Part shown: piece after piece, positions 31,902-49,485 of the stretch
Layout of the letters: every line of letters starts with the position of its first letter
How positions within the stretch are numbered: position 1 is the first letter of the stretch
Source of the DNA: Peredibacter starrii
Lineage (GTDB): Bacteria; Bdellovibrionota; Bacteriovoracia; Bacteriovoracales; Bacteriovoracaceae
NCBI RefSeq assembly: GCF_034259205.1
Contig: NZ_CP139487.1
Span: 3,968,001-4,032,000, forward strand
Length of the DNA: 64,000 nucleotides
Direction: 5' to 3'
Notes under the pieces: generated by a model
What the model was told of the DNA's origin: nothing
The model's database searches: none
What the model saw: the letters and a program-made list of their open reading frames with translations, nothing else
Made by a program: the position numbers and the translations under genes

Positions 31902-32789
31902 TTAGTTGGAGTCATCTGATCGGGTATTCTTGTCTCCATCTAACTCATTTACGAGATTCAAGACCTCTTGATCAGAGAGCATTTCGGGACCATGCCAGCG
32001 AACATGAGATTCAGTCTGATTCAAAATCTCATTCAAATCGGTCAGCTTGGCAATGCTCTTCTCCATGATGGATATCATTTCATCATCAGGAGGAAGTCTC
32101 TTACTTAAAATGAAAGTGGCAATCTTCAAGGTTTGAATGGGTGTATTGGTGCGATCACGAATATTTAAAAATATTTTGGCCACTTTTTCGTAGGCCTCTG
32201 CTTCTGCATGCTTGATACTAAGTTCACGGATGATCTTCTCATCACGATAACGAAAAAATAAAAGAAACAAAGACACAATTCCAAAGAGCATGGTGGAAGT
32301 AGGTTCAAAACCAAGAATCACCATTTGTAAATTTGGTATATCAAAATGAGTCCACATCACAATGGCCTCAATCCCAAAGATAATCATCAACAAGAGATTC
32401 ACCCAGAAAGGACCCGGGACGAGGAAAGCAAGGGCAAAGAAATGAAGCTTAATAGCAGTGAAAGGACTAAACGCTAATGAGTGTGTAATGTAAATGACGT
32501 GCTGGTGCCAGGTTAAAAAATAGTAAGGTCCGTATATGAGAATAAACAGTGCCAATGCCAAATTGATCGTCCATTTTTTTCTGGCGAGAAAAGCAATGAC
32601 AAGTCCCAAAACCGAAATCGCAACATGCACCCATTGAAACTTCAGATGTAAGTCATCATGATATTTTTCGGGAGAAGCATAGATCACAAGAAGAGTCGTC
32701 GTCATAACGAGGAAAGCAAGCGTCACTATAACATTCCAGGAGGCATGTTTTCGAACACTCAAACCTAGCTGCCCAAAGTTCGTTTTCAT
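31902..32789 (-). CDS. Six-TM membrane protein with a degenerate histidine-kinase-like helix, no ATPase
   Basis: A 295-aa protein: six hydrophobic segments in the first about 190 residues, then a helical linker (EKIIRELSIKHAEAEAYEKV) and a segment IFLNIRDRTNTPIQTLKIA. That segment resembles a DHp helix in which the phospho-accepting His is replaced (D-R-T-N-T-P-I in place of H-E-x-R-T-P-L). No HATPase_c domain follows. The gene is divergent from the aminotransferase-reductase fusion gene, sharing the region with the palindrome and sigma-54 promoter, so a regulatory link is plausible but unproven. Confidence 0.6.
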   Translation of the reverse strand: MKTNFGQLGLSVRKHASWNVIVTLAFLVMTTTLLVIYASPEKYHDDLHLKFQWVHVAISVLGLVIAFLARKKWTINLALALFILIYGPYYFLTWHQHVIYITHSLAFSPFTAIKLHFFALAFLVPGPFWVNLLLMIIFGIEAIVMWTHFDIPNLQMVILGFEPTSTMLFGIVSLFLLFFRYRDEKIIRELSIKHAEAEAYEKVAKIFLNIRDRTNTPIQTLKIATFILSKRLPPDDEMISIMEKSIAKLTDLNEILNQTESHVRWHGPEMLSDQEVLNLVNELDGDKNTRSDDSN

Positions 32790-32851
32790 CCCCCAAGGCT
32801 AATAGAAGAAAAATCCCCTGTAATTTGAGACGCATTAGTCGTTTTCACGAA

Positions 32852-32870
32852 GTGTCTAAACTTTAGACAC
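32852..32870. promoter_or_regulatory. 19-bp perfect palindrome, candidate activator site
   Basis: GTGTCTAAA-C-TTTAGACAC has perfect 9-bp arms around one base. An extra half site TTTAGACG lies at 32880-32887. The core GTCTAAACTTTAGAC recurs at 56869. Its centre is about 92 bp upstream of the start predicted from the sigma-54 promoter, the usual place for an enhancer-binding protein. Confidence 0.6.
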
Positions 32871-32926
32871 ATGCTTTTTTTTAGACGGGAAAAGCAATTT
32901 TTAAGCATTTGTTAAGGGCACATCAG

Positions 32927-32942
32927 TGGCATGGGAATTGCT
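32927..32942 (+). promoter_or_regulatory. Sigma-54 (-24/-12) promoter
   Basis: TGGCATGGGAATTGCT matches the RpoN consensus TGGCAYG-N4-TTGCW, with GG (32928-32929) and GC (32940-32941) exactly 10 bp apart. The start of transcription would be near 32953, 3 nt before ATG 32956. An in-frame GTG at 32926 overlaps this element and is rejected as a start. Confidence 0.65.
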
Positions 32943-32955
32943 TATAGAAAACCAA

Positions 32956-35865
32956 ATGACTATACAACAAACCTTGCTCTTGAATCAAAAGTTAAAGACC
33001 ACGGCCGACAAGGACCTCTTCTCGTATTACGCCCGTCCTTTGACTTCAAAACTCCTTGAGACAATGGAACTCGCCAAGCACTTTTATCATGGTGAGGGTG
33101 ACTATCTATTCTATGAAAAAGATCAAAAAATTCACCGTGTATTAGATCTAACTGGTGGCTATGGAGCAAATATCCTGGGCCACAGAAACCCTCATATTCT
33201 GGCGAAAGTTCAAGAGTGGCATGACAAAGGTTCACCTTCTCTTACACAGGGAAGTATCCGACAGGAAGCAGGCAAACTCGCGAAAAGAATTTCAGACACT
33301 CTTCATCAGGAGACCGGTGAAGGTCCTTGGATCACAACTTTTTCAAACTCAGGAACTGAGGCGGTTGAAGCAGCTCTAAAACACTGTTTGATCTACTTTG
33401 GTCATAAACTAATTGAAGTAGAGCAAGAGATTGAAAAAGAAATGAATGTTGCCCTCATTAAAATCAAGCGTTCACATGAGAACATTCAGGCAAAGTTTGT
33501 CCGTAATCTTCGTGTTGAGTTAACTGAAAAGATCTCTGATCTAAAGATGAATGAAGAAAGAAAGTCCTACTTCATTCACCAAATCAACAATGCTCTTGAT
33601 ATTGATGAACTCGTTTCATTGATTAGAGACATTAATAAAAAACAACTTTCTCAAAGACCTGGTTTCCTTGCTCTTGAAAAAGGCTATCACGGGAAGACCA
33701 TGGGTTCTCTTGGCCTTACATTCAATGAGGGTTTCAGAGCTCCATTCTATTTAGGCGGAGATGACAACAAAACCACTAAATTTATTTCTCAATACATTGA
33801 TCAATTAAGCTTCGAGAAAATTATTGAAGATTCAAAGCAGGATTTGATCTTCATCTCTGAAACTCCAAATGGAGTCGGCTGGGCCAAGCACTCATTCTCA
33901 CTTCTTGCCGGTGCATTTGTTGAACCGATTCAAGGTGAGGCAGGAGTTCTGCCGGTTAATACTCCATTTTTAGCACTTCTAAAAAAATTCTCACTTCAAG
34001 AAGATTTCCTTCTTGTGTTTGATGAAATTCAGGCGGGGATGTACCGTACTGGAAAAATGGCCTCAGGAACTCATACTGATATTACGCCTGATATCTATAC
34101 TTTCTCTAAGTCTCTTGGTGGTGGTATTGCAAAAATCGCTGCGACATCAATTAACAACAGAAAATATGTAGAGGACTTCGGATTCCTTCATACTTCTACT
34201 TTCAGTGATGATTATTTCTCATCAAGCGTGGCCCTAGAGGTTCTAAATGTACTTCAAGGCGAAAATTCACCTCTTACTGAAGGGCTTAAGACGGCTGATT
34301 TCATGGTCGCTCGTCTTGAATGGCTGCGTTCAAAATACCCGAACATTATTAAAGAAATTCGCGGTAAAGGCATGATGCTGGCGATTGAGTTCTATGACAT
34401 CTTTAAAGAGATGGGCTTTGAATTTAAAACAATTTGCGACTCAAATATGCAGGGTTATATGATGGCCTCGGTTCTTCTGAACCATGAGAACATCCGTATG
34501 AGTCCTTCCCTATCAAATAATTTAACTTTGAGAATTGCTCCAAGTCTTTACTTCACGATTATCCAAGTAGAAGAACTTATCCAGGCCCTTGATAATATGG
34601 GCCGTGCTCTAAATGAGCGTAATGTTGCCTACTTCTTATCTTCGATTTATCCAGGCGAAGCAGTTACCAATGAAATGACTGATGCGCTTAAAACGGAAGT
34701 TACGGGCGAAAGACCAATCAGCGTTTTTCTTTGCCACCTAATTGATGAAGCTCACATTAAAAAAGTAACGAAATCACTTAAAGGTGTTCAAGGGGAAAGA
34801 CTCCTCAGAAAACTTGCTCTTCCAAAAGATCTGGCTGAATTCGAAATTTATCACGCTCAAACTATTGTGGATAACAATGGTGTTGAGATGGATGTGGTGA
34901 TGCTTGGGATTCCGGTGACATCAGAAGAACTAAAGAAAACATTTACTTCAAGAAACAAATATAAAGTCGTTCAAAAAGTTCAAAATGCAGTGGATTTCGC
35001 CAAAGAAATTGGAGCTTCAACTGTTGGCCTGGGTCAATTCACTTCAATTGTTTCGGGCAACGGCCTGTATCTTAACTCGCGTGGAATGAACCTTACGACC
35101 GGTAACGCTTATACAATCTCTCTAACTGTGCAATCTGCTATTCGTTCAGCAGAAGAGAAGAACATTGATCTTAAGAATTCAACCGTTGCCCTTATCGGCG
35201 CAGCCGGGAATATCATGTCAGTGGCAACTAGCCTCATGGCAGATCATGTTGGCAAGGTGATCATGCTTCACCACTCGCCTCTTGAATCAAGCTTAAAATA
35301 CCAAGAAGCAACGAAACGCATTCTGGATGAAATCGCGGCATCAAAGGCCGATTCAAAAGTCGTGGAAATTGTTTCTAAACATTGGAAAGACAGAGACCTA
35401 TTGAAGTTCTTAAATAACGAAGAAGTAAAAGAAGTATTCGTAGCTTCGGCCGATATCACTCAAATTAAAGAGGCCGACATGGTTCTGTGTGGAGCAAGCG
35501 CCTCGAATGGTTTCTTGAGCCTGGATCTTTTTAAACAAAACGCAGTAGTGGTTGATGTGGCCGTTCCTCCATCAATCAAACCTGAAATGATCGCAAAAAT
35601 TGAATCGGAAAGACCTGATCTGACTTATCACCTTGGTGGCGTGGCCTCAATTCCACAAGACCAATCTCTAAATTTCATTGTGTTCCCTCTTGGCCACAAT
35701 GAATGTTACGCCTGCATGGCCGAGACCTTCTCACTAGGTTTTAGCGGTAAGAAGAATTTCCTTAATATCGGTGATTTAAGTAAAGACATCGTCATGGAAG
35801 TTCAAGACATTTCTAAGAGTGTGGGATTCACATTAGGTAAAGTTAAAACAAAAAGCTCTCTATAA
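32956..35865 (+). CDS. Class III aminotransferase fused to acyl-ACP-reductase-like domain
   Basis: A 969-aa two-part enzyme. Residues about 30-560 are a fold-type I, class III PLP aminotransferase: SGTEA at 132-136, KGYHGKTMGSLGLT, FVEPIQGEAGV, VFDEIQAGMYRTGK, and the PLP lysine Lys385 in FSKSLGGG. A roughly 80-residue charged helical insert (about 153-233) splits SGTEA from KGYHGKT. Residues about 640-969 match the cyanobacterial acyl-ACP reductase type: GLGQFTSIV (691-699), LTTGNAYT, the Rossmann motif VALIGAAGNIMS (from 744), and a cysteine in ECYACMAE (Cys920) at the place of the catalytic cysteine of AAR. Reduction of an acyl thioester to an aldehyde followed by transamination to an amine is the inferred reaction. 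The promoter is sigma-54 type. The 3' end overlaps the convergent acyltransferase by 6 bp. Confidence 0.8.
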   Translation: MTIQQTLLLNQKLKTTADKDLFSYYARPLTSKLLETMELAKHFYHGEGDYLFYEKDQKIHRVLDLTGGYGANILGHRNPHILAKVQEWHDKGSPSLTQGSIRQEAGKLAKRISDTLHQETGEGPWITTFSNSGTEAVEAALKHCLIYFGHKLIEVEQEIEKEMNVALIKIKRSHENIQAKFVRNLRVELTEKISDLKMNEERKSYFIHQINNALDIDELVSLIRDINKKQLSQRPGFLALEKGYHGKTMGSLGLTFNEGFRAPFYLGGDDNKTTKFISQYIDQLSFEKIIEDSKQDLIFISETPNGVGWAKHSFSLLAGAFVEPIQGEAGVLPVNTPFLALLKKFSLQEDFLLVFDEIQAGMYRTGKMASGTHTDITPDIYTFSKSLGGGIAKIAATSINNRKYVEDFGFLHTSTFSDDYFSSSVALEVLNVLQGENSPLTEGLKTADFMVARLEWLRSKYPNIIKEIRGKGMMLAIEFYDIFKEMGFEFKTICDSNMQGYMMASVLLNHENIRMSPSLSNNLTLRIAPSLYFTIIQVEELIQALDNMGRALNERNVAYFLSSIYPGEAVTNEMTDALKTEVTGERPISVFLCHLIDEAHIKKVTKSLKGVQGERLLRKLALPKDLAEFEIYHAQTIVDNNGVEMDVVMLGIPVTSEELKKTFTSRNKYKVVQKVQNAVDFAKEIGASTVGLGQFTSIVSGNGLYLNSRGMNLTTGNAYTISLTVQSAIRSAEEKNIDLKNSTVALIGAAGNIMSVATSLMADHVGKVIMLHHSPLESSLKYQEATKRILDEIAASKADSKVVEIVSKHWKDRDLLKFLNNEEVKEVFVASADITQIKEADMVLCGASASNGFLSLDLFKQNAVVVDVAVPPSIKPEMIAKIESERPDLTYHLGGVASIPQDQSLNFIVFPLGHNECYACMAETFSLGFSGKKNFLNIGDLSKDIVMEVQDISKSVGFTLGKVKTKSSL

Positions 35866-36987
35866 ATCCTTACCGTAAAGCACGTACTGAGCGTAGGTTG
35901 TTTGAGATTTCTCTTCAAACGATCTGCGCGATGGTGAATTCGTGTGCTGAAAAGTCACTAGAACCTTTCGCATTAAAGCCCCCCAGAATTGAATGCGTTT
36001 CGAGGCCTGAATCTGAACTCCCTTGATCTCTTCACCATTTGGGCCAGGAATTTTACCCACGTGAGCAATCATAAAGCAGGACATATTCATTCGCAGCCGG
36101 GCCATGATCCAGGCCTTTTGAATGAGATTTGGTTTCTTCCCTTTATATTGAGACAGAATAGGCAGAGGATCGGCAAAGTTAATACTAAAACCAACCGGCT
36201 TCCCTCTTAACTCGACAATATAGGCATACCAAGGATGGATGATGTATTTAAAGTCATCATAGATGACTTTAAATTGTTCAAACGAAATGGTTTCGAACTC
36301 AGGCATGTTTTTATAGGCCTCAGTAAAAAGCTGATGAATGATTTTAAGTTCGTTTTCCCATTCATTCATCCTCACACAACGGATCGTCGTGCGAAGCCCC
36401 TTGTTCTTGGTCTTACTATGACTCCCAGTGGGTTTTACTGCAAGTTTCTTTCGCTTTAAAAAGTAATCAATAATTCCCTGAATCTTTTTAAGGCGATAAG
36501 TATCCCAGCGGCCAATTTCTTTGAACCCAGTCTTCTCAAATAGATCATGGTAATAATCCGGATAAACTGGCTCACCCCAAACTGGCTTTTCACCGCCAGG
36601 AACTCGTATGCGATATTTAACAAAAAAGTTCAAATCGATTGGAGTTTTAAGAACGGTGAGATTATTTTTCTTAGCTACTTGTTCAATTTCTTTTATCAGA
36701 ATCTTTGCGGCTTCTTCATTATTTTCCCAATCAAGAAAACCCAAGTTCCCTTGGTTCGTTCCCTTCCGCCATGAAAGAATTCCTTTTGCAAGGACCTTAT
36801 CACTCTTCACCATCACTGCTGTCCACGAAAAATCAGAAAGGAAAACTGAATCAGGTCCGAAGAAGCGAGAGTAATCAGCGTTGGTCTCAGGAAAGCTCAC
36901 CTCAATATCGCGATGAATTTTGTTTCTAAAATTCACGAATTCCGTGAAAAATGTCTCGTCCCAGACGTCTACTGATTGAATGTTCAA
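35860..36987 (-). CDS. Double-GNAT N-acyltransferase-like protein (YghO-type)
   Basis: A 375-aa protein with two GNAT-like halves. The first has LGFLDWENNEEAAKILIKEI and VYPDYYHDLFEKTGFKEIGR, the second YAYIVELRGKPVGFSINFAD. The layout resembles the YghO-type acyltransferases of the GNAT fold, some of which are linked to amide-forming lipid synthesis. Residues 190-205 form a basic Ser/Lys linker. It is the last gene of the carS-ubiA-PEP-P450 operon and overlaps the P450 gene by 4 bp (ATGA). Acylation of the amine made by the neighbouring fusion enzyme is an inference from position. Confidence 0.65.
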   Translation of the reverse strand: MNIQSVDVWDETFFTEFVNFRNKIHRDIEVSFPETNADYSRFFGPDSVFLSDFSWTAVMVKSDKVLAKGILSWRKGTNQGNLGFLDWENNEEAAKILIKEIEQVAKKNNLTVLKTPIDLNFFVKYRIRVPGGEKPVWGEPVYPDYYHDLFEKTGFKEIGRWDTYRLKKIQGIIDYFLKRKKLAVKPTGSHSKTKNKGLRTTIRCVRMNEWENELKIIHQLFTEAYKNMPEFETISFEQFKVIYDDFKYIIHPWYAYIVELRGKPVGFSINFADPLPILSQYKGKKPNLIQKAWIMARLRMNMSCFMIAHVGKIPGPNGEEIKGVQIQASKRIQFWGALMRKVLVTFQHTNSPSRRSFEEKSQTTYAQYVLYGKDL

Positions 36988-38288
36988 GTTCTTCTCCTGA
37001 AATTCATCAAAATATTATTGAGAGGTCGAAGGCTGATTCCCGCTTCGTTTCTCTGCTCTTTTTCGAAGTTCACCATGTCCCAATCAAAATGTTGGATCAA
37101 GGTGGCAAGAATGATTTTCGCCTCCATACCTGCAAAGTAAGCACCTATACAGGCACGAGGTCCAAGCCCATAGGGATAGAAAGCGCCTTGAACGATTTTC
37201 TTTTTCTCAGTCGGAAGAAAACGCTCGGGCCAGAACTCATTAGGTCTTTCCCAAAGATCTTTCGCTCGATGACTTAAGTATGGGGCAAGAACCACATTGG
37301 CCTTTGGAGGAATTTTTAAGGCCCCTATTTGGTCCGGCACTTCTGCTTGTCGCATGAAAACCCATACCGGAGGCCAGAGTCGCATCACTTCATCAATGAC
37401 GGCTCCATGCCAAGGCATGGCATTGAGTTCTTCGAAGTTTTTATTTTTAAAAAAAGTATCAGCTTCAACTTTGAGTAGATCTTTGTATGAAGGATTTTTT
37501 GCAAGCTCCATCAAAGTCCAGGTCATCGAATTCGTAATCGTTTCATGACCGGCCATCATGAAAGTCATAATTTCATCCCTGATCTCAAGGTCAGTCATTT
37601 GAGCAGTGCCCTCTTCCTGGGCATCGATTAGGAGCTGCAATAGATCATGTTTCTTCTGACCTTCCCTGCGCTCTTTAATGATCCCATAAACATGATGATC
37701 AAATTTCTCAATGATCTTTTTCATTCGTTGATGGTTTTTAGTCGGGACCCAAAAAGGAACAGGAATTGATGAACGGGTCTTGCTCGTCACAATTTGCATA
37801 AGATCAAGAATATCTTCCAGCCAATCATCCATTTCTGTGGTGATTTCTTGAGAGAAGAGGGTCTTCAGAACGATACGCCAGGTAAGTCGGTTCATCTCTC
37901 GGAAAGCATTAACTTCCGTTTGCTTTTCAATCTCCGGAACAAACTCCATAGAGGTCGAGAGAATTCGCGGGGCCAGTTCATAAACACTTTTGATATTCAT
38001 GATAGGACGAATGAGACGATGCTGCTTACGCCAGGAATCACCATCATTTGTAATCAGCCCACGTCCCAGAAATGATCGAAGGGCCTTTGTAGTGCGACCT
38101 TTAGTGTAACCATTGTTATTTGTTTTCAGAACATGCAGAACGTCCTGAGGATCACTGATAATGAAAACGTCTTTCCCAAAGAAGTTCAAGTGAATGCGAT
38201 GTCCATGTTTCTCATGCATCTTAATCACAAACCCTAAAGGATCTCGACGATATTCTTTTAAAGTCGCATAGGATTCAAAGTAGCTCAT
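36984..38288 (-). CDS. Cytochrome P450
   Basis: A 434-aa soluble P450 mono-oxygenase with no membrane anchor. The I-helix oxygen motif is AGHET (246-250), the K-helix Glu300-x-x-Arg303 (EVMR), the PERF-like segment WPERFLP, and the heme loop YPYGLGPRACIG with ligand Cys380. All key residues are present. The general sequence style (DEIMTFMMAGHETITNSMTW) is that of fatty acid/terpenoid hydroxylases near CYP102/CYP4-like clans. It overlaps both neighbours by 4 bp, so its substrate is likely the product of this operon. No ferredoxin is adjacent. Confidence 0.93.
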   Translation of the reverse strand: MSYFESYATLKEYRRDPLGFVIKMHEKHGHRIHLNFFGKDVFIISDPQDVLHVLKTNNNGYTKGRTTKALRSFLGRGLITNDGDSWRKQHRLIRPIMNIKSVYELAPRILSTSMEFVPEIEKQTEVNAFREMNRLTWRIVLKTLFSQEITTEMDDWLEDILDLMQIVTSKTRSSIPVPFWVPTKNHQRMKKIIEKFDHHVYGIIKERREGQKKHDLLQLLIDAQEEGTAQMTDLEIRDEIMTFMMAGHETITNSMTWTLMELAKNPSYKDLLKVEADTFFKNKNFEELNAMPWHGAVIDEVMRLWPPVWVFMRQAEVPDQIGALKIPPKANVVLAPYLSHRAKDLWERPNEFWPERFLPTEKKKIVQGAFYPYGLGPRACIGAYFAGMEAKIILATLIQHFDWDMVNFEKEQRNEAGISLRPLNNILMNFRRRT

Positions 38289-40681
38289 AAGACCTCAATT
38301 GTTCCCTTGGTCGCATCAATTCTTAAACGATCACCCGTTTTGATTTTTTGGGTCGCGTGTTTTACACCCACAATGGTTGGAACATTCAGTTCCCTACCAA
38401 TGATGGCCGTGTGACTAAGGAGTGATCCCTTTTCAGAGATCAGTCCCTTACTTCGAGACATGATATAGACCCACGCCGGGTCAGTGTTCTTGGTAACAAG
38501 AATAAACTCTTTTAAATTAGATTGAAGAGCATCGTTTGGATTTTCCAGCACCAAAGCTTCGGCCTCAGTGATCCCAGGGGAAACACCTTGACCATTTAAC
38601 GCTCCCATCTCGGTATTAGCTGAGAGCTTTGGAAGCGCTTCTGTTTCTACCCACGGGATGATCTCTGGATAGTTCTGTTTCTTTGTCTGCCAGCTTTTAC
38701 GTTTACTGATTAAGGTCTGGGCCTCTTCAGTACTCATCGCTCCTGAGGCATAAGATAACCATTCCGCAGAACTAAGTGAGAAAAAATCCAAGAGACCAAA
38801 TAATTTCCAGGACTCATTTTCATTCATCAAATCTTGGCCAACTTTCAAAACGAGTTGACGATATAAATGGTAATAGCGTCCTCGCCACAATCGTGTCGCT
38901 TCCCTCATTGCAATCGCTTCTTGCGTAAAGGTGACCACTTTTCTCTCTATCCAGGAAAGCTCAATATCGTAAATTTTATGATGTGTCGGTTTAATAATCG
39001 AAGGATTCTTTTTGGCCCATTGGAGGAGTTGATTCACAAGAATAGGATTGTTCTTCATGGGAAGACTTTCGAGTTTCAATTCCTCGAAAGAGCGATCACC
39101 ATATTTGGCTAAAAATTCTTCTAAGGCCTGAACCTCTTCCCCGAATCCTTTATTTTTTAAATGGCGAAAGACATTCTCATAAGGATGAAATCCAATCTGC
39201 AGATCAGATTTTGCAAGGGCCTCAAGAAACTTTTCACTTAACTTAGAAACCACCTGATTAAAATGTTCCAAAGGTTTAACTGAGTCCACACCTTCAGTGG
39301 TCTTTAGAAGATCGATGACTTGATCTTCCGGGAGTCCTTTCTTCTTCAATACTTTTGTTAGAATCCCAAGTCCCATCATGACGAAGATATCATTTACAAT
39401 CGTTAGACCAAAGCCCAGCGGCCGATTCATGAGGCCAGTAATATACTCGATAGTTTCTTTTGAACTTTTCAACTTTTTGATGTCGGCCTCAATCGAGGCA
39501 TGATTTTTTTCAAAGTCCATCAAGAGTGGACCAAAGATCTTCTTTCGATGAAGAATCAGTTTCAGCAAGGTCTTAATGGTCACAATGGTCTCAAATTTGG
39601 AAAGCTCAGTATCATGGTGAGGAATATCAACACCACTCACTTTGCCACCAATCATCTGGTGCCAATTATGAATGTTTTTTTCTCCCCCAGGAAGTGCTCT
39701 TAAAACGGCATAATAGTGTTCGAGGTTGTAGTAAAGATGGTCATCTACCACACTGATTAAATTTCTATAGTGACGATTGAGAATCTCCAATCGTTTTCCA
39801 TGGGCCCCTAAAATGACCGCTGATTCACGGAACACATTTTCGTAGGCCTTTTTTACAAAGCTCGCCGAGAAAGGACTCACCGTCCCGGGATATGATTCAG
39901 ATAAATTCGTATCGACGAAAACCTTCAGTGGCTCAAATGATCGAGTAATGGGACGAATCTGAAAAAGATAAAGTTTTCCATCTTTGAAGCCCCATTCGAT
40001 ATCACTCGGAAGATCAATCGCTTTTTCCATTTTGAGCGAAATGCCGATGAGTTCTTGGATTTCCGATTCAGTTAAAACGGCCCTATCATTTTGCGCCAGA
40101 TGCGAGACCAATTCTAAATTACGTGTGTATTGATAGTGATCAACGATAGCGTGCCCAGAAACTACACCTTCTCCCATTCCAAAAGCAGCATCGATGGCAA
40201 TTACTGAGGTTGGCTCAACTGGAGAACGAGTAAAGAGGACCCCACTCTTCTCTACTTGAATCTGTTCTTGGGCCACAACCGCCATGAGAAGATCGACTTT
40301 CAGATCTTTCTTTTGAATATACTCTTTTACTCTATCTGAATGAACAGAGGCATAAATTTTAAAAAGTGAATCTTTCCACGTTCTCTCAGTTACATCCAGA
40401 ATGGTTTCAAACAATCCGGCAAAGCTTGAATCAGCGTTATCTTCTGAGATCATAGAACTTCTTAAAGCAATCGTAGGATGCGCTTTGAAAAATTCCTGAA
40501 ACTTCGTCTCCACTTCAAAAGGAAGTTTCTGATGTTGAAGGAAGTATTTAAAACTCTCAGTAGTAAGTACAAAGAACGATGCGACCGGCGCTCCCCAATG
40601 GACGAGCTTTTGAAGGTGGGCACCTTTGCCACCAACCAGCTCTACCGATGCTAATTCTTTTTGAGAGCTTATATAATTCAT
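38285..40681 (-). CDS. PEP-synthase/rifampicin-phosphotransferase-like dikinase (copy 1)
   Basis: A 798-aa protein. It has an N-terminal ATP-grasp (PPDK_N) domain: LVGGKGAHLQKL at the start, IALRSSMISEDNADSSFAG, SGVLFTRSP and IEWGFKDGKLYLFQIRPITR. A long middle domain of unknown role follows, and a C-terminal swivelling phospho-histidine domain with GSLLSHTAIIGRELNVPTIVG (His757). The PEP-binding TIM barrel of true PEP synthase is absent. The architecture equals rifampicin phosphotransferase, which moves the beta-phosphate of ATP to an alcohol. A lipid alcohol is the inferred substrate from the UbiA/CarS neighbours. It overlaps both flanking genes by 4 bp. Confidence 0.82.
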   Translation of the reverse strand: MNYISSQKELASVELVGGKGAHLQKLVHWGAPVASFFVLTTESFKYFLQHQKLPFEVETKFQEFFKAHPTIALRSSMISEDNADSSFAGLFETILDVTERTWKDSLFKIYASVHSDRVKEYIQKKDLKVDLLMAVVAQEQIQVEKSGVLFTRSPVEPTSVIAIDAAFGMGEGVVSGHAIVDHYQYTRNLELVSHLAQNDRAVLTESEIQELIGISLKMEKAIDLPSDIEWGFKDGKLYLFQIRPITRSFEPLKVFVDTNLSESYPGTVSPFSASFVKKAYENVFRESAVILGAHGKRLEILNRHYRNLISVVDDHLYYNLEHYYAVLRALPGGEKNIHNWHQMIGGKVSGVDIPHHDTELSKFETIVTIKTLLKLILHRKKIFGPLLMDFEKNHASIEADIKKLKSSKETIEYITGLMNRPLGFGLTIVNDIFVMMGLGILTKVLKKKGLPEDQVIDLLKTTEGVDSVKPLEHFNQVVSKLSEKFLEALAKSDLQIGFHPYENVFRHLKNKGFGEEVQALEEFLAKYGDRSFEELKLESLPMKNNPILVNQLLQWAKKNPSIIKPTHHKIYDIELSWIERKVVTFTQEAIAMREATRLWRGRYYHLYRQLVLKVGQDLMNENESWKLFGLLDFFSLSSAEWLSYASGAMSTEEAQTLISKRKSWQTKKQNYPEIIPWVETEALPKLSANTEMGALNGQGVSPGITEAEALVLENPNDALQSNLKEFILVTKNTDPAWVYIMSRSKGLISEKGSLLSHTAIIGRELNVPTIVGVKHATQKIKTGDRLRIDATKGTIEVL

Positions 40682-41553: not shown

Positions 41554-41559
41554 AACTTC

Positions 41560-42117
41560 CTAAAATGGATTCTTTCGAATGCCGGCTTTGTATAAAGATA
41601 CATTGATCACTAAATGAATAACGGTTCCAAATACAATGGTAAGCACAATTGTGGTCCACGAAATCGGCAAAAGTATCCGGTACGCCAACATGCATCCGAA
41701 GGCAGAATCTGCCTGATCGAGAACAACAAAAAACCATTTGAAGCGATCAGAGGTCTGACCCTCTTTCACTCCGAGTCGACGCTTGATAAAAGAATTGGGA
41801 AGTTCGGCCAGACAATATCCCAGCCCTAAGAGAAGGCCCAAGAGCCAAGCTGGCTCTGTCGTAAGTAGTGGTGCATTTAAGTCGAATAAAGTTTCAAGTT
41901 TTTGAGCAAGTATCACTCCTGGCCAAGTGGCCAAGGGCATTATGAAAAATCCGCGCCATGTTTTGTTTAGGCCGAACCATCTTTGATGAATGGGCTTCTT
42001 CAAGTAAGATAAGATATCCGCTTTTACTGCAATCATGTGAAGGATTCCCCCTACGATAAGTGGAACCGACAGTAAAATTACACGAACAAATTCGTGAGAA
42101 GGTAAACTTGAACTCAT
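41560..42117 (-). CDS. CarS-like CDP-lipid synthase (CDP-archaeol synthase family)
   Basis: A 185-aa membrane protein of the DUF46/CarS family, with about five hydrophobic segments. Signatures are GLNKTWRGFF (49-58), AELPNSFIKRRLGVKEG (104-120) and DQADS (134-138), the CTP/metal-binding positions of CTP:lipid-phosphate cytidylyltransferases. CarS activates archaeal lipids after the UbiA-type step; bacterial members exist whose substrates are mostly unknown. It is the first gene of the operon, starts 12 bp from the divergent permease gene, and has no SD, with a TATAAT ending 7 nt upstream. Confidence 0.75.
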   Translation of the reverse strand: MSSSLPSHEFVRVILLSVPLIVGGILHMIAVKADILSYLKKPIHQRWFGLNKTWRGFFIMPLATWPGVILAQKLETLFDLNAPLLTTEPAWLLGLLLGLGYCLAELPNSFIKRRLGVKEGQTSDRFKWFFVVLDQADSAFGCMLAYRILLPISWTTIVLTIVFGTVIHLVINVSLYKAGIRKNPF

Positions 42118-42131
42118 ATATAAGATTATAT
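42118..42131. promoter_or_regulatory. Symmetric -10 palindrome shared by two divergent operons
   Basis: ATATAA-GA-TTATAT is a perfect inverted repeat filling the gap between the two start codons. It offers TATAAT to the minus strand (7 nt before its ATG) and TATAAG to the plus strand (5 nt before its ATG). Both transcripts would be leaderless. No good -35 boxes are seen inside the two genes. Confidence 0.5.
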
Positions 42132-43368
42132 GCTGAACACTGAAAACCGCTACCTTTTCAAATTTGCCTGGAAGAGTATTCGCAGAAATGCGGGTCGAAG
42201 TTTTTTTATCGGCTTCTCAGTTTCACTGGCCGTTGTTATCGCTGTATGGGTCATCGCTTTCTTTGATGGGTTAAATTCACAAATTGAAAAAGCGGTTGTT
42301 AATACCAATACAGGTTTCTTCCAGGTACAAGATCCGGTCTATGCGGCCACGACAGACTCATCCTCTCCTCGAGAATTCACCCCGACCTTGGCACAAACTT
42401 TAAGTAAAGAACCGGTAAGTGCCGCATCTCCAGAACTCGTACTAGACGGAAATATTTCAACTCCTGAAGGAGCAACTGGTCTTTTAGTTATTGGGATCGA
42501 TCCAGAAATTCATAAACAGCTCATGCCTATTTATGAAAAAATCACCTCAGGAACATTTCTTACTCAAGATGATGAGTACGGAGTCGTCATTGGACAAGAA
42601 CTAGCGACTCTCTTCAAATTCAATGTTGGGGATCAGATGGTTCTTAACTACCAGGACAAGGTCGGAGAACTTCGCTCAGAGCTCATTACAATTCGAGGCA
42701 TCTACCACTACAACAGTAAAGGTTTTGAAAAACGCTTTGTTTATATTAATCAAAAGACTTGGCAGAATCTTTTCCTGAACGAGTACACCGGAAAGACCCT
42801 CTTTAATCGAGTGACCATCCTGACTCCTGATCTAAAATACGAACCTATTGTGCATGATCGAATCCAGGGCACAGACTTAAAGTTAAAAAGTTGGAAACAA
42901 CTGAATCCCGAAATGGCCGTGGTTTTAGAGTTCCACGATGGTATGATTAAATTCTTTTTCCTGATCATTGCATTGACCATTACGATGACAATTATGACTC
43001 CGGTCAGAATGCTCTGGCAGGAACGTTTTAAAGAATTGAAAATGATGAGTATCATCGGAGTATCTGCCAGTAAGTTCTGGAAGATCGGTATCTATGAAGT
43101 CATCCTGATGATTCTTTTATCCAGCGTCTTCTCCATCTTCATGCTGACTGCCATCATTGGAACCCAGACCCGAAACGGAGTAGACTTCCGCTATCTAAAC
43201 GACGGGGTTGCCATAGAAAGGGCCGGGATTAAACTCCCAGGGATCATCTTCCCTAAACTCACACCTGAGCAGCTTCTCATTACTTTCTTATTCGTGATTT
43301 TTGTCCTGAGTATCAGCTATCTCTGGTCCATCTATCGCACACTCACAAAGCTTGAGGCAGAAATATGA
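42130..43368 (+). CDS. ABC transporter permease 1 (LolC/MacB-FtsX type)
   Basis: A 412-aa permease with TM1 at about residues 22-44, a large periplasmic core domain (about 45-270), and three C-terminal helices (around 276-296, 318-345 and 378-403). The opening FAWKSIRRNAGRSFFIGFSV is typical of the type VII ABC systems (LolCE, MacB, FtsX) that work by mechanotransmission on periplasmic cargo. It overlaps permease 2 by 4 bp. It probably pairs with permease 2 as a LolCE-like heterodimer. Confidence 0.88.
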   Translation: MLNTENRYLFKFAWKSIRRNAGRSFFIGFSVSLAVVIAVWVIAFFDGLNSQIEKAVVNTNTGFFQVQDPVYAATTDSSSPREFTPTLAQTLSKEPVSAASPELVLDGNISTPEGATGLLVIGIDPEIHKQLMPIYEKITSGTFLTQDDEYGVVIGQELATLFKFNVGDQMVLNYQDKVGELRSELITIRGIYHYNSKGFEKRFVYINQKTWQNLFLNEYTGKTLFNRVTILTPDLKYEPIVHDRIQGTDLKLKSWKQLNPEMAVVLEFHDGMIKFFFLIIALTITMTIMTPVRMLWQERFKELKMMSIIGVSASKFWKIGIYEVILMILLSSVFSIFMLTAIIGTQTRNGVDFRYLNDGVAIERAGIKLPGIIFPKLTPEQLLITFLFVIFVLSISYLWSIYRTLTKLEAEI

Positions 43369-44573
43369 GAGGAGTGGCCTTTCTAATTAAATTTGCTTAC
43401 CGAAACCTATGGCGTGCTCCAAAGCGTACTGCCATTATGCTTTTGTCCCTCGCACTTGGTTCAGCCTTTATCATCTGGGACCTGAACTTCGCGAACTCTG
43501 GCTCAAAAGAAGTGATGAAAGAGTTTCTCGCCCAATATGCGGGCCAGTATCACATCACGAACACCGACTATTACGATAAAGAAAACAAAAAAGAGTTTGA
43601 TAACTACAAGACCATGAGTGATGACCTAGTTCAGGACAAGTCCCTGTTTGAAAAGTCCACTCGCAGAGTCACTGCCCCTGTTTTTGTTTCTGGCGAAAAG
43701 AAGACCTTGGGTGTCTTACTTACCGGTCTTGAAGTAGAAAGAGAGAATAAACTCTCCACTATCTACCGAGCCGTCACAGTCGGAAAATTCCTGAATCCAA
43801 CCGGTGAAAAAGAAATTATTTTAGGTAAAAAACTTGCTCAGAGAATCAACGTTAAAATCGGTGATGAAGTCGCCGTCATTGGACAAGGCCTTGATGGTTC
43901 GGTCGCAAATGATCTCATGATCGTTACCGGACTTCTGGATTTCGGTGGTGGTGATCTAGAAGAGTCTCTCGCCTTTACCCAGATCAAATCGGCCCAACAA
44001 CTTCTTAGCATGGATCCCTCTCGCTATCATCAGCGCGTGAGCTTCGACATGGAGAATGATACCCTGCCGACGATTCCAGGACTCGCCGTCACAAATTGGG
44101 ACGATATCCTGCCTGAAATCGGGGTCTCGGTTCGCTTCATCGATAACTTCACCTGGTTAGTTTCTTTCATCATCGTGATTGTGATTAGTCTTGGTCTCTC
44201 GAACACTTTGATGATTACTTTTTTTGAGCGTGAACAAGAATTCCAGAGTCTCAATATCATAGGCGCCAAAACCAGTTGGGTGACCATCGCTCTTATGATT
44301 GAAGTCTTTATGATGGCAACTGCCGCAGTTATTGTGGGCGCCATTCTGGGCCATATCGCCACCACTTACTGTTATTACAATCCAGTTAACATTCAGCTTT
44401 TCACGGGTGGTAAGCCCATCATTATGGGCGGCATGATTATTCAGCCTCTCGTACGTCTCTACCCTGTCTTTCAATATTATTGGCAAGTGCCACTGATGAT
44501 TTATTTTTTCCTTAGCATGACCATGATCTATCCGCTTATTCGGGTGATCCGCAGGAGCAAAAATGCAATTTGA
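43365..44573 (+). CDS. ABC transporter permease 2 (LolE/MacB-FtsX type)
   Basis: A 402-aa paralogue of the previous protein with the same layout: FAYRNLWRAPKRTAIMLLSLALG at the first membrane segment (interrupted by its own helix start), a periplasmic domain of about 230 residues, and three C-terminal helices, with FFEREQEFQSLNIIGAKT as the cytoplasmic coupling segment. It overlaps the ATPase gene by 11 bp and the first permease by 4 bp. Its start ATG lies within an ATGA stop/start. Confidence 0.88.
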   Translation: MRGVAFLIKFAYRNLWRAPKRTAIMLLSLALGSAFIIWDLNFANSGSKEVMKEFLAQYAGQYHITNTDYYDKENKKEFDNYKTMSDDLVQDKSLFEKSTRRVTAPVFVSGEKKTLGVLLTGLEVERENKLSTIYRAVTVGKFLNPTGEKEIILGKKLAQRINVKIGDEVAVIGQGLDGSVANDLMIVTGLLDFGGGDLEESLAFTQIKSAQQLLSMDPSRYHQRVSFDMENDTLPTIPGLAVTNWDDILPEIGVSVRFIDNFTWLVSFIIVIVISLGLSNTLMITFFEREQEFQSLNIIGAKTSWVTIALMIEVFMMATAAVIVGAILGHIATTYCYYNPVNIQLFTGGKPIIMGGMIIQPLVRLYPVFQYYWQVPLMIYFFLSMTMIYPLIRVIRRSKNAI

Positions 44574-45252
44574 ACTTATTAACGTCGAGAAGGTTTATCA
44601 GGCCTCTGAAGAAAATAAAGTCTACGGAGCGAGAAACGTCAATCTCAGCATTCCGGAAGGCGAATTCATGGCACTGGTTGGACCTTCGGGTTCAGGTAAA
44701 ACCACCATTCTGAATTTGATTGCCGGTCTTATCCTTCCAACTGGTGGCGTGCTCAAGCATGGTGGTAATGACATTACTTCAATGTCTCTTGAAGAAAGAA
44801 CTCAGCACCGTCTGGATTATATGGGATTCATTTTCCAGGACTACCAACTCCTCCCTATTCTGACTGCGGCGGAAAATATCGAGTTCCCTCTTCAGCTTAA
44901 GGGCTTCAGCAAAGCAGAGATTTCTGATCGCGTGAATTGGGCCCTAAAACAAGTGGGTCTTGAGAAAATGGGTAACCGCTTTCCAAAACAACTCTCTGGT
45001 GGTCAACAACAGCGTGTTTCGATTGCTCGCGCCATTGCCGGAAAACCACAATTGATTCTGGCAGATGAACCAACCGCGAACCTTGATTCAAAAACCGCCC
45101 AAGAGATCATTGATCTCTTTAAAAAATTGAATCAAGACTTCAAGCTGACTTTTGTTTTCTCAACTCACGATCAGCGCCTTATCGATCAAATTAGAACAGT
45201 TCAATATATTAAAGACGGTCAAATTACTGAGACAAGGAAGAACAATGTTTAA
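44563..45252 (+). CDS. ABC transporter ATP-binding protein (LolD/MacB type)
   Basis: A 229-aa nucleotide-binding subunit with Walker A GPSGSGKTT, Q-loop FIFQDYQLLP, signature LSGGQQQR, Walker B LILADEPT and H-loop STHDQR. The sequence style is that of LolD/FtsE/MacB ATPases. A GCAGGAG-like SD lies inside the permease gene. It completes a two-permease, one-ATPase system and overlaps the LolA-like gene by 8 bp. Confidence 0.94.
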   Translation: MQFELINVEKVYQASEENKVYGARNVNLSIPEGEFMALVGPSGSGKTTILNLIAGLILPTGGVLKHGGNDITSMSLEERTQHRLDYMGFIFQDYQLLPILTAAENIEFPLQLKGFSKAEISDRVNWALKQVGLEKMGNRFPKQLSGGQQQRVSIARAIAGKPQLILADEPTANLDSKTAQEIIDLFKKLNQDFKLTFVFSTHDQRLIDQIRTVQYIKDGQITETRKNNV

Positions 45253-45988
45253 GCATTTATTTCGTAAAGATATCGTTCTATGTGTGGCCCTTGGAGCTAA
45301 CGTCAACAACGCTGACGAATGGCTAAAATATGCAGATAAAGAAATGCGCGGCGATCGCTCTCATGCTGAAATGACCATGACCATTAAAACTCCGAACTGG
45401 ACCAGAACTCTGGAAATCGAGTCTGACGTTGAAGGAAAGAAACAGGCCCTTTCAACCATTAAGTCACCGGCGAAAGAGAAAGGCATCAGAACTCTTCGTA
45501 TTGAAAACAATATGTGGAACTACTTCCCAAAGCTCAAGCGTAAGGTGGCAGTTTCTTCATCAATGCTTCTAGCTAGCTGGATGGGTTCAGATTTCACGAA
45601 CGATGATATTTTGAAGGCCTCTTCAATGTCCGAAGACTATAACCACAAGTTCATGACAGACAAAAAGATCAATGGCGAAGACCTTAAGGTGATTGAGAAT
45701 ACCGCCAAATCAAATTCAAAAGTCATGTGGCCAAAAATTCTGACCTACTCTTCAAAGAAAGATTGTCTTCCTCGCATTCAGGAATATTACGACAAAGAGA
45801 ACAAACTTCGCCGAACACTTCTTTTGAGCAACCCTCAAACTTTCGATGGCCATAAAGTACTTACACACTGGGAAATGAGTCCCGAAGATGATAAGACTAA
45901 GCAAACCATTATTGATTATAAGAACTTAAAGTTTAATGTGACCTTTAAGCCGAATCACTTTTCTCAAAAGAACTTAACGGACAACTAA
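45245..45988 (+). CDS. LolA-like periplasmic outer-membrane sorting protein
   Basis: A 247-aa protein from ATG 45245 (AAGGAAGA upstream); a longer in-frame reading runs inside the ATPase gene and is rejected. After a short signal-like segment come the family hallmarks of the outer-membrane lipoprotein-sorting group: EMTMTIKTPNWTRTLEIES, MWNYFPKLKRKV and SSMLLASWMGSDFTNDDIL. These proteins form half-open beta barrels that carry lipid or lipoprotein across the periplasm. Its place between a LolCDE-like transporter and an outer-membrane barrel fits a cargo carrier. The signal peptide is weak and has a cysteine. Confidence 0.82.
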   Translation: MFKHLFRKDIVLCVALGANVNNADEWLKYADKEMRGDRSHAEMTMTIKTPNWTRTLEIESDVEGKKQALSTIKSPAKEKGIRTLRIENNMWNYFPKLKRKVAVSSSMLLASWMGSDFTNDDILKASSMSEDYNHKFMTDKKINGEDLKVIENTAKSNSKVMWPKILTYSSKKDCLPRIQEYYDKENKLRRTLLLSNPQTFDGHKVLTHWEMSPEDDKTKQTIIDYKNLKFNVTFKPNHFSQKNLTDN

Positions 45989-47202
45989 TGCGCTTACTGA
46001 CTCTCATTGCTCTTACTCTTTTTACTTCTGTGGCCTGGGCCCTTGAGGCCGATATTTCAGGTAACGTTGAAGGACAATGGAGACATACTAAGAACAATGA
46101 AGAAGCACAGGAAGATCTCTTTCAGGATTGGAACGAAGAAGACTTCTACCTTCTTTACGGCAACCTCAACGGTAAAGTGGAATTGAACAATTCACGCATT
46201 GAGGCCAACTGGTTTGTTCGTTATAGCCAATCGCAATTGTATGAACCTCAAAACAATCCAATTTGGGGAGATCGTCCATATCTCGCGACTCGTATTTTCA
46301 CTTTCCCTAATAAGCTTGTGGCACGAGATATCTTCCAACTTCAATACAATAAACAAGAAGGGAATCACCAAACGGAATCGGTGCTGAACAAGTTCTATTA
46401 TGAATGGGACTGGGACGGTAACCGCTTTATGGTGGGCCGCATGTATGTGAATTACGGGCTGGGTGAAATCTTTAACCCGCTTAACCCTTTTAACCAACCC
46501 ACTGGCCTTACTTCGATTCAACAAGTGGCCCAGGGTAACGATGGTCTCTCTTTTACCTTTTATGTGAATGAGAACCACACTATTCAGTTTCTCCTCCTGG
46601 GAGATAAGAGCATTGAAGGTTACGACGGACAAATCGATCGTACTCTTTGGGCACATGGTGAAATCCAGGCAAGTGATAAACTTCAATTGGATTACGTTGT
46701 AGGTGAAGACCAAAACCGCCAAAAACTGGGTGGCCAGATAGCCTATCGCTTTGAAGAGGCCATGGTCTTTTCCCAGGTTCTCTATCAATCAGAAAACGTT
46801 AAAGGCAAACCATCGGACAACCTTTGGGACGTCCTGCTGGGGTATGACCAACAATTAACTGCAAAATGGCATTTACGTTTTGAGGGTGGTTATCAGAAGC
46901 GCGATCTTGAGCAAGAAGTGTCGGCCGATAATTTTGGCGACCGCTTCTTGCCAACTGAATACTTTGTGGCCTTCGCTAACGTCTTCGAAGTGCACCCACT
47001 GTTTAAAGTGAGTGCAACAATTGTGAATGATATTAAATCTGGATTTACGTACTTAATCGGTAAAGGCACGGTCGATCTTGGTCACAACATGGAAGCAGAA
47101 CTTTTCGGTTATACTCCAGCTGCCAAAGGCGATTCTGCCGACAATCCGGCCCAAAAACTTGTGACAACAGATTTTGGTCTAGCTCTTCGCGCCTTTTTCT
47201 AA
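45988..47202 (+). CDS. Outer-membrane beta-barrel protein of the export operon
   Basis: A 404-aa protein with a signal peptide (cut near AWA-LE). Many paired strands follow (IEANWFVRYSQSQLY, RFMVGRMYVNYGLG, LQLDYVVGEDQ, WHLRFEGGYQKR) and it ends LALRAFF, a BAM C-terminal signal. The GRMYVNYGLGEIFNPLNPFN segment resembles the GR-x-W-G-x-NP motif seen in porin/DUF1302-like barrels. Its ATG overlaps the LolA-like stop codon (TAATG). It converges on, and overlaps by 24 bp, the second dikinase gene. A role as outer-membrane exit or receptor for the cargo is inferred. Confidence 0.78.
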   Translation: MRLLTLIALTLFTSVAWALEADISGNVEGQWRHTKNNEEAQEDLFQDWNEEDFYLLYGNLNGKVELNNSRIEANWFVRYSQSQLYEPQNNPIWGDRPYLATRIFTFPNKLVARDIFQLQYNKQEGNHQTESVLNKFYYEWDWDGNRFMVGRMYVNYGLGEIFNPLNPFNQPTGLTSIQQVAQGNDGLSFTFYVNENHTIQFLLLGDKSIEGYDGQIDRTLWAHGEIQASDKLQLDYVVGEDQNRQKLGGQIAYRFEEAMVFSQVLYQSENVKGKPSDNLWDVLLGYDQQLTAKWHLRFEGGYQKRDLEQEVSADNFGDRFLPTEYFVAFANVFEVHPLFKVSATIVNDIKSGFTYLIGKGTVDLGHNMEAELFGYTPAAKGDSADNPAQKLVTTDFGLALRAFF

Positions 47203-49485
47203 AACTTCTACAATTCCTGTTTTCCCATTTATTTTAATGAGGTCACCATCCTGAATAAGTTTGGTGGCATCAATTAAATTCAAAATCGCTGGAATTCCAT
47301 ACTCTCTTCCAATGACTGCCGCATGTGAAAGTAGTCCCCCTACTTCAGTTACTACACCACCCACTCGTGCCAACACTGGCGTCCATCCCGGATCGGTGAA
47401 AGCAGTGATGAGAATATCTTCTTTAGTAAGTTCATTGGTTTTATGAATGTCCATGATCACACGTGCGCGTCCTACGATCTCGCCCGGGCTACACCCCAGA
47501 CCTTTTAATCCATTGGCCGAAGATTTCATCGCCTTAATTGAACCACCAAATTCATTCGGTGGCGTGAAGGCGCGGTAACCTTGATAGTAAAGTGTGCGAA
47601 GCCTGATATCCGGCGCGCCCGCCAGACCCAAAAGGAAGCGCTTCACTTCCACCAGGTCCCACATAAAAATATCGAATTCACTGACTCCATTTCGTTTGGC
47701 AAATTCCAGCAGTCCCTGACGAAGAAGATAATAGGCACGGGTCGAATACGAGCGCATCTCTTCTCTCACACGTAAGAACTCACGGGACCTTTCCGTCATT
47801 CCATAAAATTTACGACGTCGAATAAGATTCATTTGATCAGCGATGCGATCAAAGGTCGCTCTAAATTTACTCTCCCCATGAGTGGGAACAAAGACATAAC
47901 TCTTTACCAGTTCATCCACCCACTCTTTGTTCTCACCCCAGCGAGGCACCATGAGATCCAATTCCGCAGGGCCATGGTGATAGTGATACTTCAAAAATTC
48001 CTGTCGGGCAGCATAATATGAGCGCGAATCATAACCATAAAAATCAGCGATCTTACTTAACTTCCCTAGGCCTCCCTGTACATCCAGGTGAGAGACCCCA
48101 TGAAGTTCAGTCATAAGATCAATCTCATCTCCTTCCTGATACTCAGGAAGTTTTTTAAGGTAGCTTTTAAATTCCGTTTGAAAATTAGAATTATTGTAGA
48201 TGGTACGGAAATAATTCTTTTCCGTTTCGTTCTGAAATAAAATGACATCCAGAAACCATTTATTAAAAACAGCGGTGTTCATTTTCTTAAGCTGGGGCAA
48301 ATCGTGCTTAAGTTCTTCATCCTGAGTTTCAAAGCGCACCCGAAACTGTGCAATCATATTCTCACAGTCACGAAACTCGCGATTAAGACCAATCAAAACA
48401 GGAATGGCCGCCACGACTGACGCCACTGTGGTGGAGGTTTTATGAGGACCACTTTCCCCGTAATCTTTTTGAATTCCAAGATCACGATCAAAATCTTCTT
48501 CATTAAAATCCGGAAGCTTCTTAAGGCCTTCCTTGACCGCTTCTGCGTTCCAGTAGACTCGACCATAGTGATAATGAAGCCACTGAACTTTTTCATCGTT
48601 CGGAATAAGAGAGATGCGTTTAAAATAATCCCCCATCGAAATCTTCAGAGCTTCTCGATAAGCAGAAAACATTAGGGGCGAACAAACACGGGCCGAAATA
48701 CCACCGTCTTTCAAATCAGCATTAGTGAGTTCCGGTTTATCTTCTCTTGGATTTAAAGTCGTTACGGGACGTGATTGCAGGATATAAACCTTATCGTCTT
48801 TCCCCACCGCCCACTCAATGTCCTGGGGCCTTCCATAAAAAGCTTGAATTCTTAAAGAAAGATCAATCAGTTCTTTTAGGTGTTTTTTATCAATAGTGGT
48901 CTTCTCATCATTGATCGCCACATTCAAAACTTCATCCGTTTGCCAGTTATAAGTCACACGTGATGGAGTTACGTGACCTGAAACTAATCGTTCACCAACT
49001 CCTTCACAAAACTCGAGATAAATTTCTTCTTCCCGACCATTGGTTGGATTAAGCGTGAACAGCACTCCCGCGATCTTGGCGTCCACCATCTTTTGAACCA
49101 GGACACTCATCGAGAGTGATTCCGGATTCCATTCAATTTTTTTTGTTTCGAGATAATCTTTCACGCGATGAGAGTGTCTTGAATCAAAACACTTCTTGAT
49201 CGCATCTTTCAGTTCAATTGGATTTTGAATAAAGAGAAAAGTTTCATAAAGGCCCGCGAAGCTCGCGTTCGCCATATCTTCTAACGATCCACTCGATCTC
49301 ACCGCCACCGGAAATCCGCCGATTTTTTGAATCGCCTCATCGAGCTCATTTGCTTCCTGGAATAATACAAAACCCGGCGGCACCGGAAACTGATGGGCCA
49401 AACGGGCCAGGCTTTGGGCCTTTCCACCCATTTTATGTAGGTCAGATTCCGATAAATTAGCGTCGCTCAGGTAGTTTATTTTCAT
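47179..49485 (-). CDS. PEP-synthase/rifampicin-phosphotransferase-like dikinase (copy 2)
   Basis: A 768-aa protein from ATG 49485. The domain order equals that of copy 1: ATP-grasp (MGGKAQSLARLAHQF, FPVAVRSSGSLEDMANASFA, AGVLFTLNPTNG, IEWAVGKDDKVYILQSRPVT), a large middle domain, and a C-terminal phospho-histidine domain with GGLLSHAAVIGREYGIPAI (His721). The two copies differ widely in the middle, so they should use different acceptors. It again lacks the PEP-binding barrel. It has its own transcript and converges on the export operon. The GTG/ATG choices upstream at 49563 lack an SD. Confidence 0.82.
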   Translation of the reverse strand: MKINYLSDANLSESDLHKMGGKAQSLARLAHQFPVPPGFVLFQEANELDEAIQKIGGFPVAVRSSGSLEDMANASFAGLYETFLFIQNPIELKDAIKKCFDSRHSHRVKDYLETKKIEWNPESLSMSVLVQKMVDAKIAGVLFTLNPTNGREEEIYLEFCEGVGERLVSGHVTPSRVTYNWQTDEVLNVAINDEKTTIDKKHLKELIDLSLRIQAFYGRPQDIEWAVGKDDKVYILQSRPVTTLNPREDKPELTNADLKDGGISARVCSPLMFSAYREALKISMGDYFKRISLIPNDEKVQWLHYHYGRVYWNAEAVKEGLKKLPDFNEEDFDRDLGIQKDYGESGPHKTSTTVASVVAAIPVLIGLNREFRDCENMIAQFRVRFETQDEELKHDLPQLKKMNTAVFNKWFLDVILFQNETEKNYFRTIYNNSNFQTEFKSYLKKLPEYQEGDEIDLMTELHGVSHLDVQGGLGKLSKIADFYGYDSRSYYAARQEFLKYHYHHGPAELDLMVPRWGENKEWVDELVKSYVFVPTHGESKFRATFDRIADQMNLIRRRKFYGMTERSREFLRVREEMRSYSTRAYYLLRQGLLEFAKRNGVSEFDIFMWDLVEVKRFLLGLAGAPDIRLRTLYYQGYRAFTPPNEFGGSIKAMKSSANGLKGLGCSPGEIVGRARVIMDIHKTNELTKEDILITAFTDPGWTPVLARVGGVVTEVGGLLSHAAVIGREYGIPAILNLIDATKLIQDGDLIKINGKTGIVEVLEKGAKS

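Follow-up and report, generated by a model that had tools for sequence, protein, structure and literature searches.

Introduction

In tambjamine biosynthesis, fatty amines are made from TamA-bound fatty acids by PtTamH, an enzyme in which an aminotransferase domain precedes a reductase domain (PMC9594044), and KecF of the koreenceine pathway is another aminotransferase-reductase fusion (PMC6498172). The tam cluster of Pseudoalteromonas tunicata contains, in addition to TamH, the gene for TamQ and genes for two permeases, an ABC protein and hypothetical proteins (PMC6667630).

Here we analyse a locus with a fusion of this kind in Peredibacter starrii, a member of the Bacteriovoracaceae (Bdellovibrionota) and a freshwater relative of the predatory Bdellovibrio. 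Like the tam cluster, the locus encodes a fusion in the same domain order and an ATP enzyme of the PigC type, together with a pair of permeases, an ABC protein and hypothetical proteins, the likeness of the exporters being one of gene listing; unlike the tam cluster, it has no bipyrrole pathway at the locus, and it carries genes for a UbiA-type enzyme, a CarS-like enzyme, a second dikinase, a GNAT-like protein and a P450. KecF of Pseudomonas koreensis shares with the fusion an N-terminal aminotransferase and a C-terminal AAR-like reductase, but the substrates of KecF are polyketide chains and the koreenceine cluster is otherwise unrelated. Both domains are also shared with PigE of the prodigiosin pathway (PDB 4ppm), with homology detectable in each, but there the domain order is reversed.

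Results

Organisation of the locus

The window, by which we mean the whole stretch of 64,000 nucleotides that was analysed, is part of a single-contig genome of 4.15 Mb. It contains the following features:

32926..35865, plus strand: TamH/KecF-type fusion (PF00202, TIGR04058, PDB 6jzu/4ppm)
35860..36987, minus strand: GNAT-like, probably tandem GNAT, acyltransferase (weak AF2 model against 2wpx; no Pfam match)
36984..38288, minus strand: cytochrome P450, accessory (PF00067, 259 bits; C380 invariant among homologues)
38285..40681, minus strand: dikinase-1 (PF01326 and PF00391; H757 invariant)
40678..41553, minus strand: variant UbiA-type membrane transferase (PF01040, 36.1 bits, narrowly above the cut-off of 34.2; PRK13592, 132 bits)
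41560..42117, minus strand: CarS-like CDP-lipid synthase (PF01864, 51.8 bits against a cut-off of 22; motif aligned to 5guf)
42130..43368, plus strand: FtsX-type permease 1, LolC/MacB-like (PF12704; core exporter gene of the genus)
43365..44573, plus strand: FtsX-type permease 2 (PF12704, PF02687)
44563..45252, plus strand: LolD-like ABC ATPase (PF00005, 127 bits)
about 45245..45988, plus strand: LolA-like periplasmic carrier (PF17131, 153 bits)
45988..47202, plus strand: predicted outer-membrane protein with a signal peptide (a barrel by appearance only; conserved alongside the exporter genes)
47179..49485, minus strand: dikinase-2 (PF01326 and PF00391; PigC model, 274 bits; H747 invariant)

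Open frames and family matches indicate that the eleven genes of a preliminary description of this DNA are all real and overlap as it had claimed. In the block of five minus-strand genes, the coordinates confirm a 6 bp gap between the CarS-like and UbiA genes and 4 bp overlaps of UbiA with dikinase-1, of dikinase-1 with the P450 and of the P450 with the GNAT-like gene. The five export genes overlap successively by 4 bp (permease 1 and permease 2), 11 bp (permease 2 and the LolD-like gene), 8 bp (LolD-like and LolA-like) and 1 bp (LolA-like and barrel). The start of the locus does have to be moved: the gene at 31902-32789, where the preliminary description began, encodes a membrane protein with no Pfam or NCBIfam match and is unmatched at any of the 15 relatives' loci that were compared, and it therefore lies outside the unit. 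Note that the CarS-like gene and permease 1 are divergent, with 12 bp between their start codons (42117-42130) and similar spacing in relatives, so that both promoters would lie within coding sequence.

The aminotransferase-reductase fusion

The fusion consists of a class III aminotransferase (residues ~30-560; PF00202 matches residues 65-514 with 183 bits) followed by an AAR-like thioester reductase (~590-979). The C-terminal 390 residues resemble long-chain acyl-ACP reductase (TIGR04058, PDB 6jzu/6jzq) as well as the reductase part of PigE (4ppm). Among 33 homologues, the PLP lysine K395 and C930 are invariant; in the alignment C930 falls on the cysteine of the ACFAE motif in 6jzq, and we take it to be the catalytic cysteine of the AAR-like reductase. 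Judged by its domain order and by the conserved lysine and cysteine, both of which are present, the fusion is a TamH/KecF-type enzyme, and its predicted role in forming a fatty amine from a carrier-bound acyl thioester is strongly supported by homology to TamH and KecF. The earlier suggestion of a lipid amine as a product fits this assignment.

The aminotransferase domain contains a helical insert of ~80 residues (~168-250; window 33427-33690) with no Pfam match. The insert also occurs as a stand-alone small open reading frame (L111:12596-12910, L112:4304-4603, L113:10958-11176, L116:9695-9916, L119:5033-5332 and L145:3425-3778), with similarity to the fusion ending at the insert borders. Among the loci examined, this frame stands in the place of the fusion, beside hyp260, solely where the fusion is missing.

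The two dikinases

Both dikinases have the layout of Rph and PigC, with an N-terminal ATP-binding domain and a C-terminal phospho-His domain. PigC is a condensing enzyme. The best family match of dikinase-2, which co-occurs with the fusion, is PigC/RedH; its score of 274 bits is below the NCBIfam equivalog cut-off for PigC/TamQ ligases (1300 bits), with the domain layout the same. Against the NCBIfam cut-off for rifampicin phosphotransferase (999 bits), the two dikinases score 184 and 252 bits. Rifampicin phosphotransferase and prodigiosin ligase were accordingly dropped as names on the family cut-offs. The preliminary description likened both proteins to rifampicin phosphotransferase; kinase roles for them are at most putative, as dikinase-2 accompanies the fusion and is PigC-like. 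The start of dikinase-2 is probably at 49485, as the end of the locus given earlier implies, because alignments with relatives begin no earlier than residue 25-30 of the longer frame.

The UbiA-type, CarS-like and GNAT-like proteins

In the UbiA-type protein, D64-E65-K67-D68-D72 and E188-R191-K192 are invariant among homologues. The first motif is a DExKDxxxD variant and the second, WExxRK...E, is not the canonical Asp-rich one; the substrate is therefore uncertain. The CarS-like protein has the catalytic motif of CDP-lipid synthases and aligns with 5guf through SF-KRRLG...LDQxD, although it scores 63 bits against the cut-off of 148 for the CDP-archaeol synthase equivalog PRK04032. The retained motif agrees with the earlier call of a CDP-lipid synthase and supports a predicted role in activating a lipid phosphate.

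The AF2 model of the GNAT-like protein is of low confidence (mean pLDDT 50; 57-92 in the N-terminal part), and therefore we took from it the fold class alone. It matches the tandem GNAT 2wpx (E 1.5e-5), which suggests that 35860-36987 probably encodes a tandem GNAT acyltransferase.

Conservation within the genus and across the phylum

The order is fusion, then GNAT-P450-dikinase-1-UbiA-CarS, then the five exporter genes, then dikinase-2. The same order and orientation are found in eight other congeners with spanning contigs (G003, G006, G011, G012, G013, G015, G021 and G024) and likewise in a genome of another genus (G029) with a fusion identity of ~48%, which excludes chance. Four further congeners (G007, G008, G014 and G017) have the block on broken contigs. 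Close relatives are Bacteriovoracaceae MAGs such as UBA4096, with a fusion identity of 72%. The P450 is accessory, being missing from two of the eight spanning congeners (G021 and G024) and from G007 and G019. In two genomes (G001 and G010) internal deletions have removed synthesis genes and truncated the fusion locus. Dikinase-2 is absent from these two, and the congeners that have it are precisely the 13 with an undamaged fusion, our own genome included. The gene lies beyond the exporter, and its loss along with the other arm is the strongest indication that the two arms belong to a single pathway.

We surveyed 369 genomes of the phylum and counted co-occurrence in the 343 outside the genus. 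The fusion and dikinase-2, each found in 21 genomes, occur together in 16, against an expected 1.3 (P=3e-19), and UbiA (stronger class) and CarS give 17/18, against 1.5 (P=4e-20); for the stronger UbiA class, cross-pairs between the sub-modules give P values of 1e-6 to 2e-9, all of these values being inflated by shared ancestry. The synthesis genes, for which the preliminary description had proposed a search for co-occurrence, are thus linked as two sub-modules that are themselves linked. One comprises the fusion and dikinase-2, which are often adjacent, and which in several families are neighbours or lie close together (L127, L133, L136, L137, L138 and L142); the other comprises UbiA and CarS with dikinase-1 and the tandem GNAT, and UbiA, dikinase-1 and GNAT travel together at L129, L139/L154 and L145. 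Clustering of the genes was seen in relatives, and they could be assigned to no housekeeping pathway, so neither of the two observations that would have spoken against the earlier reading was made.

At the corresponding locus of two genomes (G141 and G142) the fusion is missing from its usual place, and genes for a diacylglycerol-kinase-like protein, an NAD_binding_4 reductase and a 674-residue AAR-domain protein lie between CarS and the exporter. This front end also occurs in a second, paralogous cluster of many Bacteriovoracaceae (L103, L104, L117, L118, L105, L109 and L110), together with genes for a metallo-beta-lactamase, a P450, an AMP-ligase-UbiA fusion, a dikinase, a GNAT and DUF3419, and at some of these loci with LolD/LolC/LolA genes.

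In G104, G105, G106, G084, G187 and G211 (also g42), a phosphatidylserine decarboxylase (PSD) paralogue is found close to CarS, dikinase-2 or the fusion, and these genomes have a second PSD copy elsewhere. Several of the PSD-associated loci carry an MMPL exporter, which is found in loci without the ABC exporter.

Two other loci of the P. starrii genome have related gene pairs. A UbiA-dikinase pair (L107:5026-8482; G000:C1 about 571000-574500) lies beside sugar-nucleotide and glycosyltransferase genes, and an FtsX-permease pair (L108:9154-16815; G000:C1 about 2420000-2428000) lies beside P450, methyltransferase and, by eye, desaturase-like genes, possibly a further lipid locus.

The exporter

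The exporter resembles LolCDE/LolA lipoprotein transport in its FtsX-type permeases, LolD-like ATPase and LolA-like carrier, but it is accompanied by an outer-membrane protein (45988-47202, no family match) and its permease is far under the cut-off of the LolC/E equivalog TIGR02212 (57 vs 362 bits), by which a canonical LolCDE identity was rejected. Nearly all congeners have the exporter between lgt and rplU, with or without the synthesis genes; in seven (G002, G004, G009, G016, G018, G023 and G025) the permeases are at this site and no synthesis genes were seen. The preliminary description treated the export genes as a dedicated part of the locus. That view does not hold, since the exporter is retained in at least seven congeners in which both synthesis arms are lost; moreover, synthesis genes are found unaccompanied by the export genes in other families.

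In a FastTree phylogeny of the exporter, genomes that lack the synthesis genes are scattered: G009 nests within the G000/G003/G012 clade (support 0.998), and G016 groups with G024 as its sister (1.0). Provided that the exporter tree follows the species, this suggests that the synthesis genes were lost repeatedly.

Discussion

Proposed pathway

We tentatively favour, at somewhat less than an even chance, a pathway whose two synthesis arms, placed around a resident lipid exporter, make an alkylamine-containing, CDP-activated outer-membrane lipid. The fusion would make a long-chain amine in two steps, reduction of a carrier-bound fatty acyl thioester to the aldehyde followed by transamination. 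Dikinase-2 may then use ATP to join the amine to a carbonyl partner in the manner of PigC/TamQ, as its family and its co-occurrence with the fusion suggest, and UbiA, with dikinase-1, could activate and attach a second hydrocarbon chain. CarS would convert a lipid phosphate to a CDP-lipid, to which a polar head might be added; the cluster-encoded PSD paralogue of some relatives points to a serine/ethanolamine head. The tandem GNAT may acylate an amine, the optional P450 may oxidise a chain, and the neighbouring export set (ABC permeases and ATPase, LolA-like carrier, barrel) would carry the product to the outer membrane, probably along with other lipids.

This reading draws on the homology of the fusion and its invariant catalytic lysine and cysteine, on the shared retention or loss of the two arms, which have five exporter genes between them, on phylum-wide co-occurrence and adjacency in other families, and on the PSD paralogues beside cluster genes and the MMPL lipid-type exporter where the ABC exporter is missing. 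Counting against it are the noncanonical second UbiA motif, the single PSD of the window's genus, which lies far from the locus, the absence of an acyl carrier or activating ligase gene from the cluster in the window, and the persistence of the exporter without synthesis genes, which makes its link to the product positional. Of what the preliminary description proposed, the clustered set of lipid-type enzymes is supported, the fusion fits formation of an amine and the CarS motif fits CDP activation of a lipid, whereas a dedicated exporter is not supported.

Alternative explanations

The pairing of the fusion with a PigC-like enzyme is that of TamH and TamQ, and could also belong to a secreted small natural product, for instance an antibiotic, pigment or signal of alkyl-imine or alkylamine type akin to tambjamine, exported by the ABC set. 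The two permeases, ABC protein and hypothetical proteins listed for the tam cluster (PMC6667630) and an accessory, repeatedly lost distribution, typical of specialised metabolites, agree with such a product, but CarS, UbiA and the PSD paralogues are lipid enzymes and the annotation of the locus showed no bipyrrole (MBC) biosynthesis genes; we consider this explanation somewhat unlikely. Tambjamine itself was rejected as the product on the same bipyrrole result. We regard it as still less probable, indeed quite unlikely, that exporter and synthesis genes are unrelated neighbours, the exporter being a core lipid or lipoprotein transporter by lgt and the product staying in the inner membrane. The site of the exporter between lgt and rplU, shared by almost every congener regardless of synthesis genes, and the occurrence of the synthesis sub-modules elsewhere without it fit this arrangement; the synthesis genes on both sides of the exporter in two genera, and the MMPL exporter that adjoins the same enzymes in other relatives, argue against it.

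UbiA, CarS and PSD also parallel DGGGP synthase, CarS and archaetidylserine decarboxylase, and would, in an archaeal-type isoprenoid ether lipid made by a bacterium, have UbiA as DGGGP synthase and CarS forming CDP-archaeol. The archaeal phospholipid route indeed shares with these loci a UbiA-type enzyme, a CarS-like enzyme with a common motif and, in relatives, a PSD homologue. However, GGGP synthase (PF01884) was found in 0/38 genomes, this one included, while positive controls matched, and the UbiA protein, a variant, scores poorly against archaeal models (26-29 bits); a fatty-amine enzyme is present instead. Since GGGP synthase was not found, we consider archaeal ether-lipid synthesis highly improbable.

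Implications

Consistent with the earlier statement that no described pathway has this gene set, the literature on Bdellovibrio, on bacteria with CarS/UbiA and on fatty-amine clusters gave no description of it; the individual enzyme types are known, and their combination is undescribed in the literature searched. As a more specific conjecture, which we hold to be unlikely as it stands, the locus might make a new class of outer-membrane lipid in the Bdellovibrionota, in which a PigC-type enzyme links a long-chain alkylamine to a prenylated, CDP-activated phospholipid and in which both the front end (the amine-making fusion or the reductase/lipid-kinase set) and the exporter (ABC or MMPL) are interchangeable. 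The modules, with their swapped front ends, swapped exporters and repeated loss, offer a testable, stepwise reading of the pathway. If true, alkylamine-forming enzymes, known from few antibiotic and pigment pathways, would be extended to the envelope lipids of predatory-type bacteria and would there be paired with enzymes of archaeal-lipid type.
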